The notes beneath the pieces are model-generated. The model was not told the DNA's origin, did not search any database, and worked only from the letters and a program-made list of their open reading frames with translations. The position numbers and the translations under genes were made by a program. Below are positions 3,007 to 30,866 of a DNA stretch of 30,866 nt, piece by piece (the stretch's first letter is position 1; each line of letters starts with the position of its first letter). Source of the stretch: a virus. The stretch is taken from positions 1 to 30,866 of the IMG/VR virus record IMGVR_UViG_3300043436_001137. The stretch is one strand, 5' to 3'.

Positions 3007-3125
3007 GTGAAAAGAAGACACTGAAACAAGATTACACCGAACGCTTACGCAAGTATGAGCGTGAGTTGTCACTAAAACTACGTGCAAATGGCAACAAAGA
3101 AGCAGCCAAACCCACAACCAAATAA
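3003..3125 (+). CDS. Small basic protein, 40 aa
   Basis: This ORF starts at the ATGA overlap with the preceding connector gene and encodes 40 residues beginning MSEKKTLKQDYTERLRKYER, strongly charged and probably one helix. It overlaps the next gene by 38 bases in another frame. Stop-start coupling and Lys/Arg/Glu-rich helical composition argue for a real gene. Function unknown. It could be a small capsid- or connector-associated peptide. Confidence 0.55.
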   Translation: MSEKKTLKQDYTERLRKYERELSLKLRANGNKEAAKPTTK

Positions 3126-3510
3126 GCCTGAAGGCGTAGACTTTAAGAAGCTACGTTACAAGCTTGAACTATTCGATGGATTCTGGTCGATACCACTTGC
3201 CTTTTTGCTGTTTGCTGTATCGGGTACGGTATCCGTTGCCTACTTTGGTGATGCGCTAATAAGTACGGAGTATATTCAATTTGTTATACTTGCTGCACTT
3301 GTTATGGTCTTTGCCAATTTCGTTGTTTTTTTGGGCATCAGATTCAATTTTCGGGCATTGCAAAAGGAGATATATAACAAGGAAGTCAAGTATGAAATAA
3401 ATACCTATCTAACCACATGGCAAAAGGTTGTCTTATACCTGCTCTTATATGCGTTCTACTTTGCTGCATACCTGTATATCTTACACATGCTGATGACGGT
3501 TACTGCGTAA
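3088..3510 (+). CDS. Membrane protein, holin candidate, 140 aa
   Basis: A polar Lys/Pro/Gln-rich N-terminus of about 30 residues is followed by three hydrophobic segments: about 34-54 (IPLAFLLFAVSGTVSVAYF), 62-82 (FVILAALVMVFANFVVFLG) and 111-132 (VVLYLLLYAFYFAAYLYIL). I chose ATG at 3088 (MATKKQPN); a GTG two codons earlier is possible. Three membrane spans, small size and position directly before a CHAP-like endolysin and a spanin-like pair make it a holin candidate, by context only. Its last 94 bases are overlapped by the endolysin reading frame. Confidence 0.65.
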   Translation: MATKKQPNPQPNKPEGVDFKKLRYKLELFDGFWSIPLAFLLFAVSGTVSVAYFGDALISTEYIQFVILAALVMVFANFVVFLGIRFNFRALQKEIYNKEVKYEINTYLTTWQKVVLYLLLYAFYFAAYLYILHMLMTVTA

Positions 3511-3995
3511 GGGTAACCTCAGCTGCGTTTGTGGGTATAAAGGAGAAAGGCGGCAATAACATGGGCTTTAATGACAAGGCTCTGCATGTTCTTATGAAGC
3601 AGGAAGGGTGGAAACCCGGCTATGCGTGGTGTTCATTCTTTGTCATGGCTATGCTCAACGAGTGCGGCATACCTAACACCATCACAGGTTGGTCACCTAC
3701 TGCATACAATCGCAACGATGTAATCTTTACAGATGGCAAATTCTTACAAGCATTCAGCGATAAGGATGTGCTAGTGATGACACTTAGTTACAACTCATTT
3801 AAGGGTAAGCGATACAAAGGCATTGGTCACACTGGTATAGTGGACAAGGTATCAAAGTATTCAGTGCGCACGATTGAAGGCAACACCAATGAGCAGGGCA
3901 TGAGAGATAGTCGCACACGCGATGGGGTGTACTATAAGATTCGCCCACTAACCAAAAACTTACACATAACACGATGGGGGAAGACTACAATATAA
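3417..3995 (+). CDS. CHAP-like endolysin with possible N-terminal signal/anchor
   Basis: The catalytic domain starts near residue 34 with the run AAFVGIKEKGGNN, typical of phage CHAP/NlpC-like amidases. Cys72 (AWCSFF), His138 (GIGHTG) and Glu154 (IEGNTN) are the expected Cys-His-acid catalytic set. It would cleave host peptidoglycan. The only ATG in frame upstream of the domain is at 3417, inside the preceding membrane-protein gene. Its first 25 residues (MAKGCLIPALICVLLCC and on to THA) read like a signal peptide or signal anchor. Overlap with a gene for transmembrane helices can produce hydrophobic frames by chance, so a non-ATG start near 3500-3530 cannot be excluded. The 3' end overlaps the spanin-like gene by 22 bases. 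Confidence 0.75.
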   Translation: MAKGCLIPALICVLLCCIPVYLTHADDGYCVRVTSAAFVGIKEKGGNNMGFNDKALHVLMKQEGWKPGYAWCSFFVMAMLNECGIPNTITGWSPTAYNRNDVIFTDGKFLQAFSDKDVLVMTLSYNSFKGKRYKGIGHTGIVDKVSKYSVRTIEGNTNEQGMRDSRTRDGVYYKIRPLTKNLHITRWGKTTI

Positions 3996-26092: not shown

Positions 26093-26265
26093 TGGATTCA
26101 ATTAAAAACTCAATGCGCTATTTGCAGCTGGGCATCGCACCAACAAGTAAGCATAACTTTCAACTTCGCCCATGGCAGCGGTGGGTATGGTACATCACGC
26201 TTTATGTGTGGCGCACCGTCTTGTTTTTCGGACTAATCTATTTACTATCTAAACTAATATACTAA
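26092..26265 (+). CDS. Small membrane protein between hub and tape measure, 57 aa
   Basis: The 57-residue ORF starts at TAATG with the hub and ends at TAATG with the tape measure. A polar first half (MDSIKNSMRYLQLGIAPTSK) precedes LRPWQRWVWYITLYVW and RTVLFFGLIYLLSKLIY, a probable membrane span. The Trp-rich WQRWVWY segment is amphipathic. Perfect coupling on both sides argues it is real. Role unknown; a possibility is membrane interaction during DNA entry. Confidence 0.65.
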   Translation: MDSIKNSMRYLQLGIAPTSKHNFQLRPWQRWVWYITLYVWRTVLFFGLIYLLSKLIY

Positions 26266-28472
26266 TGGCAGAGCCTATCGTTCGGAGTTTCGTAATTGAC
26301 ACCACTGAGAGTGAACAAAACCTCAAGGAGTTAAACGTTCAAATCAATGCAACAGATGCTGCAATCAATCAAGGTGCGCAATCCTTTGAGAATGTAGCCG
26401 CTGCTGAGCAGGAAGTAGTAGCATCGAGCAAGTCACTCAAGGCGCAGTTGCGTGAGTTACAGGCTCAACTTGCAAACACTGAACCCGATAGTGCAAAGTA
26501 TCGTGAGTTATCACAAGCAGCGGGGGAACTGAAAGATAAGATTCAGGATGCAGCGCAAGCAGTAGGGACACAAGCAGGTGGTGCGTTCGAGCGTGTTAGT
26601 GGATCACTTGGACTTGTTACCTCACGTATTGCATCACTTGACTTTGAAGGTGCAGCCGAAGGTGCAAAGCTACTTGCACAAAACATTACGCAGATTAAGC
26701 CGGGTGATATTGCCAAAGGTATATCTAGCATAGGTAGTGCGTTTGCTTCGGTAGGTAAGGCGTTACTAACTAACCCTATCTTTTTGATTGGTGCAGCCAT
26801 TGCAGGTGCAATCGTTTACGCTGAAGAATTGCTATCGCTTGTTGATGGTGTAACCGATGCAGAAACCAAAGCACTGGATGTACAGAAGGAACGTGCTGCA
26901 CTTGCGAAAGAACAAGTAGACCTAATAGGTCAACAGGAAGAAACGCTAAAGCGTCAAGGTTTAACCGAAAAGGAAATTACCGACCTCAAGTTGCAAGCTT
27001 TAGACACTGCCATACTTGAACAACAAGCAGTAGTTGAAACGACACAGATACAAGCAGAGGCACAGATAAAAGCAGCAGAACGTAATGCTGAATACTTAAA
27101 GACGTTCCTCGACTTTGTTACATTCCCACAGCGCAAGCTTGCAGAATTCTTTGAAGGGTTTGTTAATGGCTCAATTGATATACTCAATAAGTTAGGATTG
27201 GGTATTGAGAAGATAGATGTTACGGGTGTATTTGAAGACGTAAACAACTTTATTGTAAAGAAGATATTCGACCCGGAGCAAGAACGTAAAGACCAAGCGA
27301 AGATTGTTGCAGATACTAAGAAAAGTTTAGTGTCCTTGAACAACCAACGTGATGCGATACTCAATCAACAAGAAGCAAAGGACAAGGCACGCAGGGAAAA
27401 GGCGGCAGCAGATAAGAAGGCAGCAGATGAAAAGGCACTTGCTCAAGAAGCAGCCAACCTTGAAAAGGAAGCGCAAAAGGTTGATGAATATTATAAGAAA
27501 CTTGCTGAACTTGAGGATGAGCGTTTTGAGGATTCACTGACTAAGGCAGAACAAGAAGAACTTGCCATCGTGCAGAAGTACGAAGCGTTATTTGCCGCAG
27601 CCGATGCCGCAGGTAAAGACACGATTGAACTGCAACAGCAACTAAATGCTGAACTCGCAGCACTGGAAGCACAGCGCACAGCGAATGCACAAGCTGAAGC
27701 AGATAAACGTAAGGCATTAGAAGATGATTTCTTTGCAGATCTACAAGCGTTAAATAATGAAAAGTTTGCCGCAGAAGATGAAGCTTATGCAGCATCACTG
27801 AGCAAAGGTGAACAAGAAGAATTACGAATCACACAACGCTACGAAAGGCTATTTGCAAAGGCAGATGCAGCAGGTAAGGATACTACTGCATTGCAGAAAA
27901 GGTTAGCAGAAGAACTTAAAGGCATACAGCAAAAGAGTGCGGATGATGAAATAACCATTAAGAGCATTAGTGCCGAAAAAGGTTTGCAGTTGGCACAAGG
28001 TGCATTGCAAGTATTGCAAGCGTTCAGTGATGCATCTGCGAAGAAAGGCGAACGAGATGCACGCAAAAAGTTTAAGACTGACAAAGCACTTGCAATTGGT
28101 GCGGCAACCGTTCAAACAGCATCGGCTGTTACGGGTGCATTGACCGCAGGAGGTAATCCAATCAAACTTGCTACCGGTGCGCAATTCGTTGAAGCAGCCA
28201 TAGCCGCTGCATTAGGTGCTGCTCAAATTATTAAAATCAAAAATCAAGAGTTTGGCGGTGGTGGTAGTAGTGGTGGAGATACCAACGTATCTGTTCCATC
28301 AACGGGCGGTGGTGATGTTGCAACACAACCTGCTCAGTTTAACCCACTCGCTGCATCTTTCCTACAAGAACGACCAGAGCAACTTACGCCCCGTGCGTTT
28401 GTCCTTGCAGGTGATGTAGCAAGTCAACAAGAAGTAAGACAAAAGGTTGAGGACTTAGCAAGAATCGGATAA
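26265..28472 (+). CDS. Tape measure protein, 735 aa
   Basis: The protein is helical and coiled-coil along most of its length (LKAQLRELQAQLANTEPDSA, EQEETLKRQGLTEKEIT, KRKALEDDFFADLQALN). It has one hydrophobic stretch near residues 165-185 (LTNPIFLIGAAIAGAIVYA) that could insert in the membrane at injection. It carries two copies of a 52-residue unit (27513-27668 and 27774-27929) with 31 of 52 identical. A Gly-rich C-terminus (GGGGSSGGD) precedes the last segment. Tape measures set tail length and fit between hub and later genes. Length implies a modest tail. The call is from architecture and order. Confidence 0.8.
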   Translation: MAEPIVRSFVIDTTESEQNLKELNVQINATDAAINQGAQSFENVAAAEQEVVASSKSLKAQLRELQAQLANTEPDSAKYRELSQAAGELKDKIQDAAQAVGTQAGGAFERVSGSLGLVTSRIASLDFEGAAEGAKLLAQNITQIKPGDIAKGISSIGSAFASVGKALLTNPIFLIGAAIAGAIVYAEELLSLVDGVTDAETKALDVQKERAALAKEQVDLIGQQEETLKRQGLTEKEITDLKLQALDTAILEQQAVVETTQIQAEAQIKAAERNAEYLKTFLDFVTFPQRKLAEFFEGFVNGSIDILNKLGLGIEKIDVTGVFEDVNNFIVKKIFDPEQERKDQAKIVADTKKSLVSLNNQRDAILNQQEAKDKARREKAAADKKAADEKALAQEAANLEKEAQKVDEYYKKLAELEDERFEDSLTKAEQEELAIVQKYEALFAAADAAGKDTIELQQQLNAELAALEAQRTANAQAEADKRKALEDDFFADLQALNNEKFAAEDEAYAASLSKGEQEELRITQRYERLFAKADAAGKDTTALQKRLAEELKGIQQKSADDEITIKSISAEKGLQLAQGALQVLQAFSDASAKKGERDARKKFKTDKALAIGAATVQTASAVTGALTAGGNPIKLATGAQFVEAAIAAALGAAQIIKIKNQEFGGGGSSGGDTNVSVPSTGGGDVATQPAQFNPLAASFLQERPEQLTPRAFVLAGDVASQQEVRQKVEDLARIG
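27513..27929 (+). repeat. Duplicated 52-residue coiled-coil unit in the tape measure
   Basis: Unit 1 (27513-27668) and unit 2 (27774-27929) align without gaps. They share SL.K..EQEEL.I.Q.YE.LF and ADAAGKDT..LQ, 31 of 52 residues identical. The start-to-start spacing is 87 codons. This is protein-level repetition; such units can set tail length. Confidence 0.8.
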
Positions 28473-28491: not shown

Positions 28492-29088
28492 ATGGAAAAA
28501 AGAAAAATCGTTAAGTGTGTAATCGATGAAGAAGGTCGATTGGGTATTACTGCAATGGGCTTAGTGGATAGCCCTGCAATCGAAGAGAACTGGATTGCAC
28601 TAAGCAAGATGCAGCTTGCAAAAGTGGATGACGAGCGCAGAATGCTATACGGCCCTGCACTCATTCCGGATAAAGAGATACTTCGCTATGATGACAAAGG
28701 CGAACCATACTATGTGTTTTTTGAAAAGGCAACGGTAAGTGCTATTGCACATCAGTTCTTCAAAAAGAATCTGCAACACACCACCAACTTGCAGCACGAA
28801 ATACCAGTGACGGGTGTTACCGTGGTTGAGTCATGGATTAAGGAAGGCAAGATGGACAAATCAATGCAGCTCGGACTGCCTGAGTTACCCGATGGTACAT
28901 GGTTCATTGGTACTAAGGTCGATGAAGACCACGTGTGGAATGATGTGAAAGAAGGTAAGGTGCGTGGTTATAGCATTGAAGGCTTCTTTAACGAGGTAGG
29001 CGTAGCCATGAGTGGTGTGAAGAATTACGAAGCGGAATTGGTGCTGGAGTTGGACAATCTTTTAAGCAGTGTAAACCCCAACAAATGA
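28492..29088 (+). CDS. XkdF-like putative phage serine protease, 198 aa
   Basis: XkdF-like proteins (Peptidase_S78_2 type) are maturation proteases that process the capsid scaffold. The motifs fit: VVDSPAIEE-like LVDSPAIEENW near residue 25, LYGPALIPDK near 52, YVFFEKATVSAIAHQFF near 75, NLQHE with His102, and VVESW with Ser114 as the likely His-Ser pair. KVRGYSIEGFF near 165 closes the domain. The length is normal. Its stop overlaps the start of the subtilase (ATGA). The family's activity is inferred from pattern; which residues are catalytic is my reading. Confidence 0.8.
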   Translation: MEKRKIVKCVIDEEGRLGITAMGLVDSPAIEENWIALSKMQLAKVDDERRMLYGPALIPDKEILRYDDKGEPYYVFFEKATVSAIAHQFFKKNLQHTTNLQHEIPVTGVTVVESWIKEGKMDKSMQLGLPELPDGTWFIGTKVDEDHVWNDVKEGKVRGYSIEGFFNEVGVAMSGVKNYEAELVLELDNLLSSVNPNK

Positions 29089-30866
29089 AAATAAATGCTG
29101 TCAAGTTTAAAGACAAGAAGTCTTTTGACAAAAACAAAAACAAGCCGAATGTTCGTGCAGTGCATGAGCCTTTTGGTATCATCGTGTTCGAAGATGTTTC
29201 ACCGGTTACTCCTGATTCTACCAAAGTATCGCAGGCATACCAAGTAGACGCATCACTCGATAACATTCCTTCGGGCATGGCTATTCTTGTTGCTCCTGAT
29301 TTTGGTGCAGCACAAGCTTACTTGCAAGGCATGAAGGTAGTGATCACTGAAACTTTCCCGCTAACCAACACGATGTTCGTGGAGGTTCCTGCGTTTGCAT
29401 CGTTTGATGATTTCTACACTGCACTCATGAATAGCAAACTATTCACGAGCGTAGAACCTGACTACATACAACCATTCCAAACGGATGCAGATGCGTACAC
29501 CTACGATGGTCAATGGCACTTGCCAAACGTAAAGGCAAGAGAAGCGTGGGGATTGATTGATGGTGCGGCCTATGGTGAAGTTGCAGTACTCGATATTGCA
29601 TGCGAGGTGAATCACGAAGATTTAGCAGGTCGCATTAGCAGCACATCGTGGAATTGCGTAACAGATGCAGCAGATGTAAACCCAGTTACTGAGTTCGAAA
29701 GACACGGTACACCATGCAGCGGTTTGATATGTGCAGCCACGGATAACAACATAGGAGTTTCCTCATTAGGAAACAACAAACTCAAGGTGCAATTCCTGCA
29801 CATCGGATATGGTAGCACAGCAGGTGGGGGGTTTAGTACTTCCGATTTGATTATAACCCGTGCAATCAACAAGGCAATAGCTAACCCTGCGTGTCTTGCT
29901 ATCTCGATGAGTTGGGGCGGTGGTGGTCCAACAAGCTACCCACTATTCCAAAACGCACTCACAGCGGCAAAGACCACGGGTCGTGGTGGTAAGGGTATAC
30001 CAATCTTTGCTTCAAGTGGTAACCAGAACAATCCTAACTTTACACAAGCACCTGCTATCTACCCGATGGTGCATGCTGTTGGTGCAACAACCGTATCCAA
30101 CACACGTGCAAACTTCAGCAACTACGGGCCGAAAACATTTGCATCTACTCCCGGTGTAGGCTGTCCAACTGTTGACCGCACGGGTGCGTTTGGTTACAAC
30201 GCAACAAGCAACTACACCAACTTCAGCGGAACATCATGCTCATGCCCCGTCATGGCTGCAATTGCTGCAAACGTTTTGCTTGCTAATCCCGCACTGACTG
30301 AGGCGCAAGTAACAGACGTACTGCGTCAAGCTGCACGCAAAACGGGCGGGTATGTGTACGATGCAAATGGTAAGAGTGCTGAACTTGGATATGGTATTGT
30401 AGATATGTTCTCAGCTGTGACCATTGCAAAGACGATGCAAGGCGGTGACCCTGTACCCGTGCCAACTCCTGAATACAATCTATTTGGTACAATTAGCACA
30501 CCTGCTAACGCAGTACAAGGCACATCCATCAACGTGGTGTATAGCGTGAACGTAGACAGAGTTTATGACAAGGATATAACCACTACCATCAACTTGCTTT
30601 TCAAGCGTCCTGATGGCAGCGTGTTCACTTTCTACACTGGCAGCGTGACCATTCCAAAAGGTCAGCAAGTAACCACCATGCAAACACCATTCGGTTTGCC
30701 AAACAATCAGATAGGCAATTGCGTATTCACGCTAACCATCGACCCGAACATGGTCATTCCTGAACTGAATGAGAATGATAACAGCATCAGTACCGGGACA
30801 AACATCACCGCACTCAATCCACCAACCACGGGAGTAGATGCTTCGGTAACTATTGACAGCTACGAG
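29085..30866 (+). CDS. Subtilase (S8) with pro-domain and Ig-like C-terminus, cut by the right edge
   Basis: The open frame runs 594 codons to the window end. Residues about 65-130 end in SVEPDYIQPF, the form of an inhibitor-I9-like propeptide. The catalytic triad is visible: Asp170 (VLDIACEV, unusual where DTG or DSG is normal), His207 (ERHGTPCSG), oxyanion Asn313 (ASSGNQNNP) and Ser384 (FSGTSCSCPVMAA). From about residue 455 a CARDB-like beta domain with PELNENDNS follows. No signal peptide is present, so it acts in the cell or in the virion. It starts at ATGA with the XkdF-like gene, so it belongs to the head-protein cluster. Confidence 0.85.
   Translation, partial: MKINAVKFKDKKSFDKNKNKPNVRAVHEPFGIIVFEDVSPVTPDSTKVSQAYQVDASLDNIPSGMAILVAPDFGAAQAYLQGMKVVITETFPLTNTMFVEVPAFASFDDFYTALMNSKLFTSVEPDYIQPFQTDADAYTYDGQWHLPNVKAREAWGLIDGAAYGEVAVLDIACEVNHEDLAGRISSTSWNCVTDAADVNPVTEFERHGTPCSGLICAATDNNIGVSSLGNNKLKVQFLHIGYGSTAGGGFSTSDLIITRAINKAIANPACLAISMSWGGGGPTSYPLFQNALTAAKTTGRGGKGIPIFASSGNQNNPNFTQAPAIYPMVHAVGATTVSNTRANFSNYGPKTFASTPGVGCPTVDRTGAFGYNATSNYTNFSGTSCSCPVMAAIAANVLLANPALTEAQVTDVLRQAARKTGGYVYDANGKSAELGYGIVDMFSAVTIAKTMQGGDPVPVPTPEYNLFGTISTPANAVQGTSINVVYSVNVDRVYDKDITTTINLLFKRPDGSVFTFYTGSVTIPKGQQVTTMQTPFGLPNNQIGNCVFTLTIDPNMVIPELNENDNSISTGTNITALNPPTTGVDASVTIDSYE

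Follow-up and report, generated by a model that had tools for sequence, protein, structure and literature searches.

A subtilase coupled to a phage head protease occupies a cargo slot and is apparently an optional, mobile gene of late operons

The window, by which we mean the whole 30,866-nt stretch of viral DNA analysed here (IMGVR_UViG_3300043436_001137), ends in two overlapping serine protease genes, one for an XkdF-like head maturation protease and one for a subtilase. Comparative sequence analysis with hundreds of related viral fragments suggests that the subtilase is an apparently functional, optional and mobile protease of late operons, with predicted proteolytic activity. Its link to the head protease is incidental: although genuine, the ATGA coupling arises from a cargo slot at the operon's end. 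In the reading that we favour, with a probability of about 0.45, the subtilase is an accessory late protease, cargo that closes the tail/XkdF operon, and would attack proteins of the host envelope or surface during release; we infer its activity, timing, place and substrates. The best reading may also include action as a virion enzyme besides lysis and release. The window virus is a virus of Bacteroidota bacteria.

Gene layout of the window

The genes considered here all lie on the + strand:

494–2428, +: portal (PHROG portal, E 9e-67; gene order in the relative L007)
3082–3510, +: holin-like membrane protein, part of the lysis cassette (by inspection, its position corresponds to that of the holin-like ORF in L007)
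3417–3995, +: CHAP endolysin (68% identity to its counterpart in the homologous contig L069)
4173–5007, +: two small lysis-cassette genes, 169 and 107 aa (66% and 43% identity to L069)
26265–28472, +: tape-measure-like protein, upstream of the proteases and in the same direction (PHROG 24676, tail length tape measure, E 5e-13)
28492–29088, +: XkdF-like head maturation protease, 198 aa (Pfam PF14550, Peptidase_S78_2, "phage serine protease XkdF", E 4e-20)
29085–29088, +: ATGA overlap, subtilase start codon within the XkdF stop region (sequence)
29085–30866, +: subtilase (S8), truncated by the contig end to 594 of about 689 residues (Pfam PF00082, E 6e-33)

The preliminary description had recognised two serine proteases in ATGA coupling, and the S78_2 and S8 matches to 28492–29088 and 29085–30866 bear this out. 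The subtilase scores 115 bits against Peptidase_S8 (cut-off 21.8). H102 and S161 of the upstream protein are invariant in an alignment of 8 diverse relatives, so that both the family profile and the conserved His and Ser place it in the XkdF/S78_2 family. The same XkdF/subtilase overlap recurs in most of at least 80 viral homologues from the first search; the pairing is therefore far from chance.

The 3' end of the subtilase gene is lost at the contig end, and full-length features were taken from homologues. Complete homologues comprise 683–689 aa, the closest having 689. Looking past the contig end through relatives, as had been proposed, gave a full protein of 689 aa with a 201-aa scaffold-like protein as its next neighbour in L007. 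The gene order there is fibre, tail genes, tape measure, XkdF, subtilase, scaffold-like protein, a 298-aa putative MCP, two small genes, portal, holin-like gene, CHAP lysin, two small genes and phosphoesterase. The 298-aa protein was taken as MCP by its position and conservation, its PHROG having no named function. The window begins at the gene preceding portal and is therefore a permuted copy of an L007-type genome. In another record (G010) XkdF is split across both record ends, a split that a circular map of around 33.7 kb would produce. The window, with portal at 494–2428 and XkdF at 28492–29088, seems to represent a siphovirus-like genome in circularly permuted form; its nearest isolates are the Nonlabens phages P12024S/L (portal 31%, XkdF 37%).

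The subtilase protein

Residues and domains map to the window as follows; counts of homologues, here as for slots and contigs below, are among the matches listed:

29085–29264, +: conserved N-terminal region, residues 1–60 (alignments; model)
29265–29468, +: propeptide-like domain, residues 61–128, topology as in inhibitor I9 (secondary structure of the L003 model)
29487–30434, +: subtilisin-fold catalytic domain, residues 135–450 (VIA-align; PDB profile search)
29592–29594, +: catalytic Asp170 in D-I-A (99/99 distinct phage homologues)
29703–29705, +: catalytic His207 (99/99)
30021–30023, +: oxyanion Asn313 (98/99)
30234–30236, +: catalytic Ser384 in G-T-S (99/99)
30480–30818, +: first Ig/CARDB-like domain, residues about 466–578 (model; CARDB Pfam hit in L069)
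30819–30866, +: start of the second Ig-like domain, the remainder lying off the contig (model of a full-length homologue)

The four active-site residues lie where the preliminary description had placed them, and the D, H, S triad is kept in S8 order throughout the 99 homologues. The same description had regarded D-I-A as a departure from the usual motif. D-[ST]-G after the catalytic Asp is typical of S8 subtilases, although not defining, and is indeed replaced by D-I-A here, but the motif is not aberrant: the second residue after the invariant Asp is Ala in 79 of the 99 homologues and Gly in 19. D-I-A is thus the family norm and no sign of decay. Pairwise dN/dS is about 0.1, indicating that the gene is under constraint. 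With its triad kept in 99 of 99 homologues, the protein is not degenerate, a possibility that had been raised together with poor conservation in relatives; the latter has some truth, as presence of the gene is polymorphic. Two homologues (L044 and L068) have a frame break that leaves open frames of 456–457 aa, from either an assembly error or a pseudogene.

To describe the domains we used a structure model of L003, a homologue 92% identical to the window protein. An alignment of 21 similar sequences had given a model of low quality (pLDDT 62); with 43 diverse sequences the pLDDT reached 88.7 and the pTM 0.55, so the individual domains can be trusted, but not their arrangement relative to one another. 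Residues 135–450 match furin, thermitase and mirolase with VIA-align Z scores of 38–40. In a sequence search of the PDB, the top hit was mirolase from Tannerella, a Bacteroidota enzyme. Residues 61–128 of the model form a β-α-β-β-α-β arrangement, the element order of the subtilisin propeptide; this supports the pro-domain proposed earlier, which gave no Pfam I9 hit. Residues 466–689 are modelled as two β-sandwich (Ig/CARDB-like) domains. A CARDB-like C-terminus had been anticipated as one domain; its character is supported by the model and by the homologue L069, in which CARDB (PF07705) is detected over two stretches with 41.1 bits (cut-off 22.7), the window protein and L003 falling below the threshold. 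Inspection of the sequence by eye, in agreement with the preliminary description, revealed no evident signal peptide.

A cargo slot between XkdF and scaffold

We surveyed sites in which both XkdF and scaffold are present, using XkdF and MCP queries that do not select for the subtilase; with the best 80 hits taken per query, the results are proportions among the matches listed and no census. The 78 distinct slots contain the subtilase (41), an unrelated 354-aa gene (10) or nothing (27), with an XkdF-to-scaffold distance of 135–332 nt when empty. The flanks are alike in all three states (XkdF 87–92%, MCP mostly >90% identical to L007). Because the subtilase is missing from slots of close relatives with very similar flanking proteins, capsid assembly does not need it. 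A profile search of 12 records with an empty or 354-aa slot found no subtilase elsewhere in the record; profile A1 recovered the subtilase in every positive record, and profile A3, used on these 12, had no positive control there.

The cargo lies between the XkdF stop codon and a hairpin followed by T's, which recurs in all 8 alleles printed and whose stem shows matching changes across them (judged by eye). A consensus terminator scan did not exceed shuffled sequences (3 vs 2.9). The recurring hairpin with its matching stem changes suggests that the slot sits just before a terminator. Between hairpin and scaffold, most alleles contain a small reverse-strand ORF that looks ribbon-helix-helix-like by eye (L007, 11642–11969).

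Among the best 80 distant XkdF relatives, 79 are without subtilase. The exception, L141, has the subtilase in the slot but inverted, and the CHAP family of the window relatives was not found in this contig. Its closest relative, L249, carries the 354-aa gene in place of the subtilase. In the nearest isolate, Nonlabens phage P12024S, XkdF and scaffold are one 349-aa protein (PHROG 24921), and no subtilase is annotated. A tree of slot filling gives two changes, one being also compatible. The only bacterial relatives of the subtilase found were distant S8 domains (23–36%), so that no donor was identified.

The 354-aa protein is of no recognised family (L182, 5594–6658; also L242, L249 and L256), without a match in Pfam, PHROG, NCBIfam, PDB sequences or isolate phages. 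A scan of viral contigs for it yielded 11 hits, all close copies.

Lysis genes adjoin the subtilase in two other lineages

Outside the window's own lineage the subtilase is found beside holin and endolysin genes in 20 contigs of two other lineages. In 13 contigs among the matches listed, no more than about 10 nt separate the end of the subtilase, or of the last one in a series, from the start of a holin-like gene, or the two genes overlap; CHAP comes next. In 7 further contigs the subtilase begins some 20–40 nt after CHAP. The first set is mostly crAss-like, its terminase and capsid proteins matching their counterparts in Crassvirales and Cellulophaga phages. A Crassvirales-type terminase is present in 5 of the 9 contigs tested; three second-set contigs lack it, as does L130. 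In the third lineage (L131, L135, L139, L151, L158 and L159), which includes two contigs of about 66 kb, the subtilase directly follows CHAP at the end of a rightward operon.

Holin and CHAP of these phages have 55–74% identity to those of the window family, the pairs that adjoin the subtilase reaching 55–68%, which indicates that the module is common to unrelated phages. The holin-like proteins of L007 and L069, which have no Pfam hit, are 56% identical; the L007 CHAP homologue matches a PHROG endolysin (E 1e-6) and lies just under the Pfam cut-off for CHAP. The two small post-CHAP genes of the window are homologous to those after CHAP in the crAss-like phages. Window-type relatives with and without subtilase have the same CHAP family, so the protease is optional there. 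A more distant subtilase (33%; L163, 7692–9959) lies in a 190-kb viral contig, with no holin/CHAP context in the stretch read.

Arrays and divergence

Two crAss-like contigs carry tandem diverged subtilases between fibre genes and holin/CHAP, six in L124 (193–13516) and five in L126 (3685–14907); L133 and L153 have two copies each. Array copies are 26–43% identical across types, with the triad intact in all. Matching copies of L124 and L126 are 39–78% identical, against 96% for terminase and 94% for portal. Types A and B of the window lineage differ likewise: the subtilase is 57.5% identical, XkdF 89.5% and MCP 92.3%, and within the subtilase the catalytic domain is 68% and the two C-terminal domains are 47% and 36% identical. 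This pattern fits replacement together with fast change at a host-facing protein and is not proof of positive selection.

Candidate roles

Context most favours a role in lysis, one of those listed in the preliminary description, because homologues adjoin holin and CHAP in two other lineages; the adjacency does not extend to the window lineage, which counts against this reading. The lysis cassette is also present in relatives without subtilase, so the subtilase is not needed for lysis. As an accessory release enzyme, it would be made late and without export, as a precursor carrying the propeptide-like domain, and would process itself. It would exit once holin and CHAP endolysin open the cell, its two fast-diverging Ig/CARDB-like domains directing it to host proteins, and might help the burst itself, free particles from debris or clear neighbouring cells of their surface proteins. 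A broader generalisation is more tentative, and on balance we doubt it: Bacteroidota phages would have an optional, lysis-tied proteolytic component, beside holin, endolysin and spanin-like functions, in which mobile self-processing subtilases, arrayed with diversified targeting domains, strip envelope or surface proteins at release.

Phage enzymes known to breach the envelope mostly hydrolyse polysaccharide or peptidoglycan. A widespread, exchangeable protease family tracking holin/endolysin across unrelated Bacteroidota phages, crAss-like ones included, would add protein digestion to entry or release. Its divergent tandem copies suggest that phage and host compete over surface proteins in an arms race.

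The tail-fibre adjacency in crAss-like phages counts against release in that it fits a virion enzyme equally. Such an enzyme, also among the roles listed in the preliminary description, would sit near the fibres and digest host surface proteins at adsorption as the protein counterpart of polysaccharide depolymerases. Large fibre-like ORFs upstream of the subtilase in crAss-like contigs, the late operon shared with tail genes in the window family, the lack of an evident signal peptide and a conserved N-terminal region (residues 1–60) that could dock are all consistent with it. However, no docking domain was recognised in the subtilase, the gene follows CHAP at the operon end in the ~66-kb group, and it is optional among phages with near-identical structural genes; we rank a virion-bound entry protease second, as rather unlikely.

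A cytoplasmic role in counter-defence or host take-over, in which the enzyme would degrade a defence or regulatory protein of the host and arrays would cover several targets, is less probable again. Optional cargo and rapid diversification, both seen here, are typical of anti-defence genes, and no export signal is evident, but the subtilase lies in late operons and beside holin/CHAP rather than among early genes, PADLOC gave only a weak S8-level match, and CARDB/Ig domains, as present in the subtilase, are usually extracellular.

Maturation of structural proteins, proposed in the preliminary description, is very improbable: although ATGA coupling to XkdF and the position before scaffold and MCP would suit a second head protease that helps XkdF to process scaffold, MCP or further structural proteins, the subtilase is absent, among the matches listed, from 37 of the 78 slots in closely related phages that share XkdF, scaffold and MCP, and from the annotation of P12024S with its fused XkdF–scaffold protein, is inverted in L141 and has homologues in phage contigs without a detected XkdF-like gene. 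Adjacency to head genes can thus mislead, the head operon here containing a cargo slot.

Relation to known proteases

Phage subtilases are known, whereas the mobile, arrayed and lysis-linked family is apparently undescribed in the open-access literature: in the papers searched we found no description of its cargo slot, lysis linkage or arrays. The family itself is already in databases as A0A6J5R7S5 of an uncultured Caudovirales phage (BFVD; 683 aa, 56% identity over the whole protein), whose annotation as "Peptidase S8/S53 domain containing protein" is automatic and without context or function.

Among tailed phages, S8 peptidases are also encoded by Prochlorococcus phages P-HM1/P-HM2 (PMC3037559). 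Bacillus phages Goe27 and vB_BcoS-136 and Moorella phage MTATph1 encode them as well. These other phage subtilases are <31% identical to the window subtilase, in the catalytic part only, and in the three records read lie among non-structural genes, not beside lysis genes.

Secreted bacterial S8 subtilases (mirolase of Tannerella forsythia, 8ehe; thermitase; fervidolysin, 1r6v) are alike in catalytic domain, triad and fold. The published structure of fervidolysin reportedly likewise has a propeptide and two C-terminal β-sandwich domains. Unlike these enzymes, the window subtilase is phage-borne, has no evident signal peptide and is encoded in late phage operons; its catalytic domain is about 30% identical to theirs. 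The XkdF-like S78_2 head maturation proteases, represented by the overlapping upstream gene, have an unrelated fold, and the subtilase stands outside their family.
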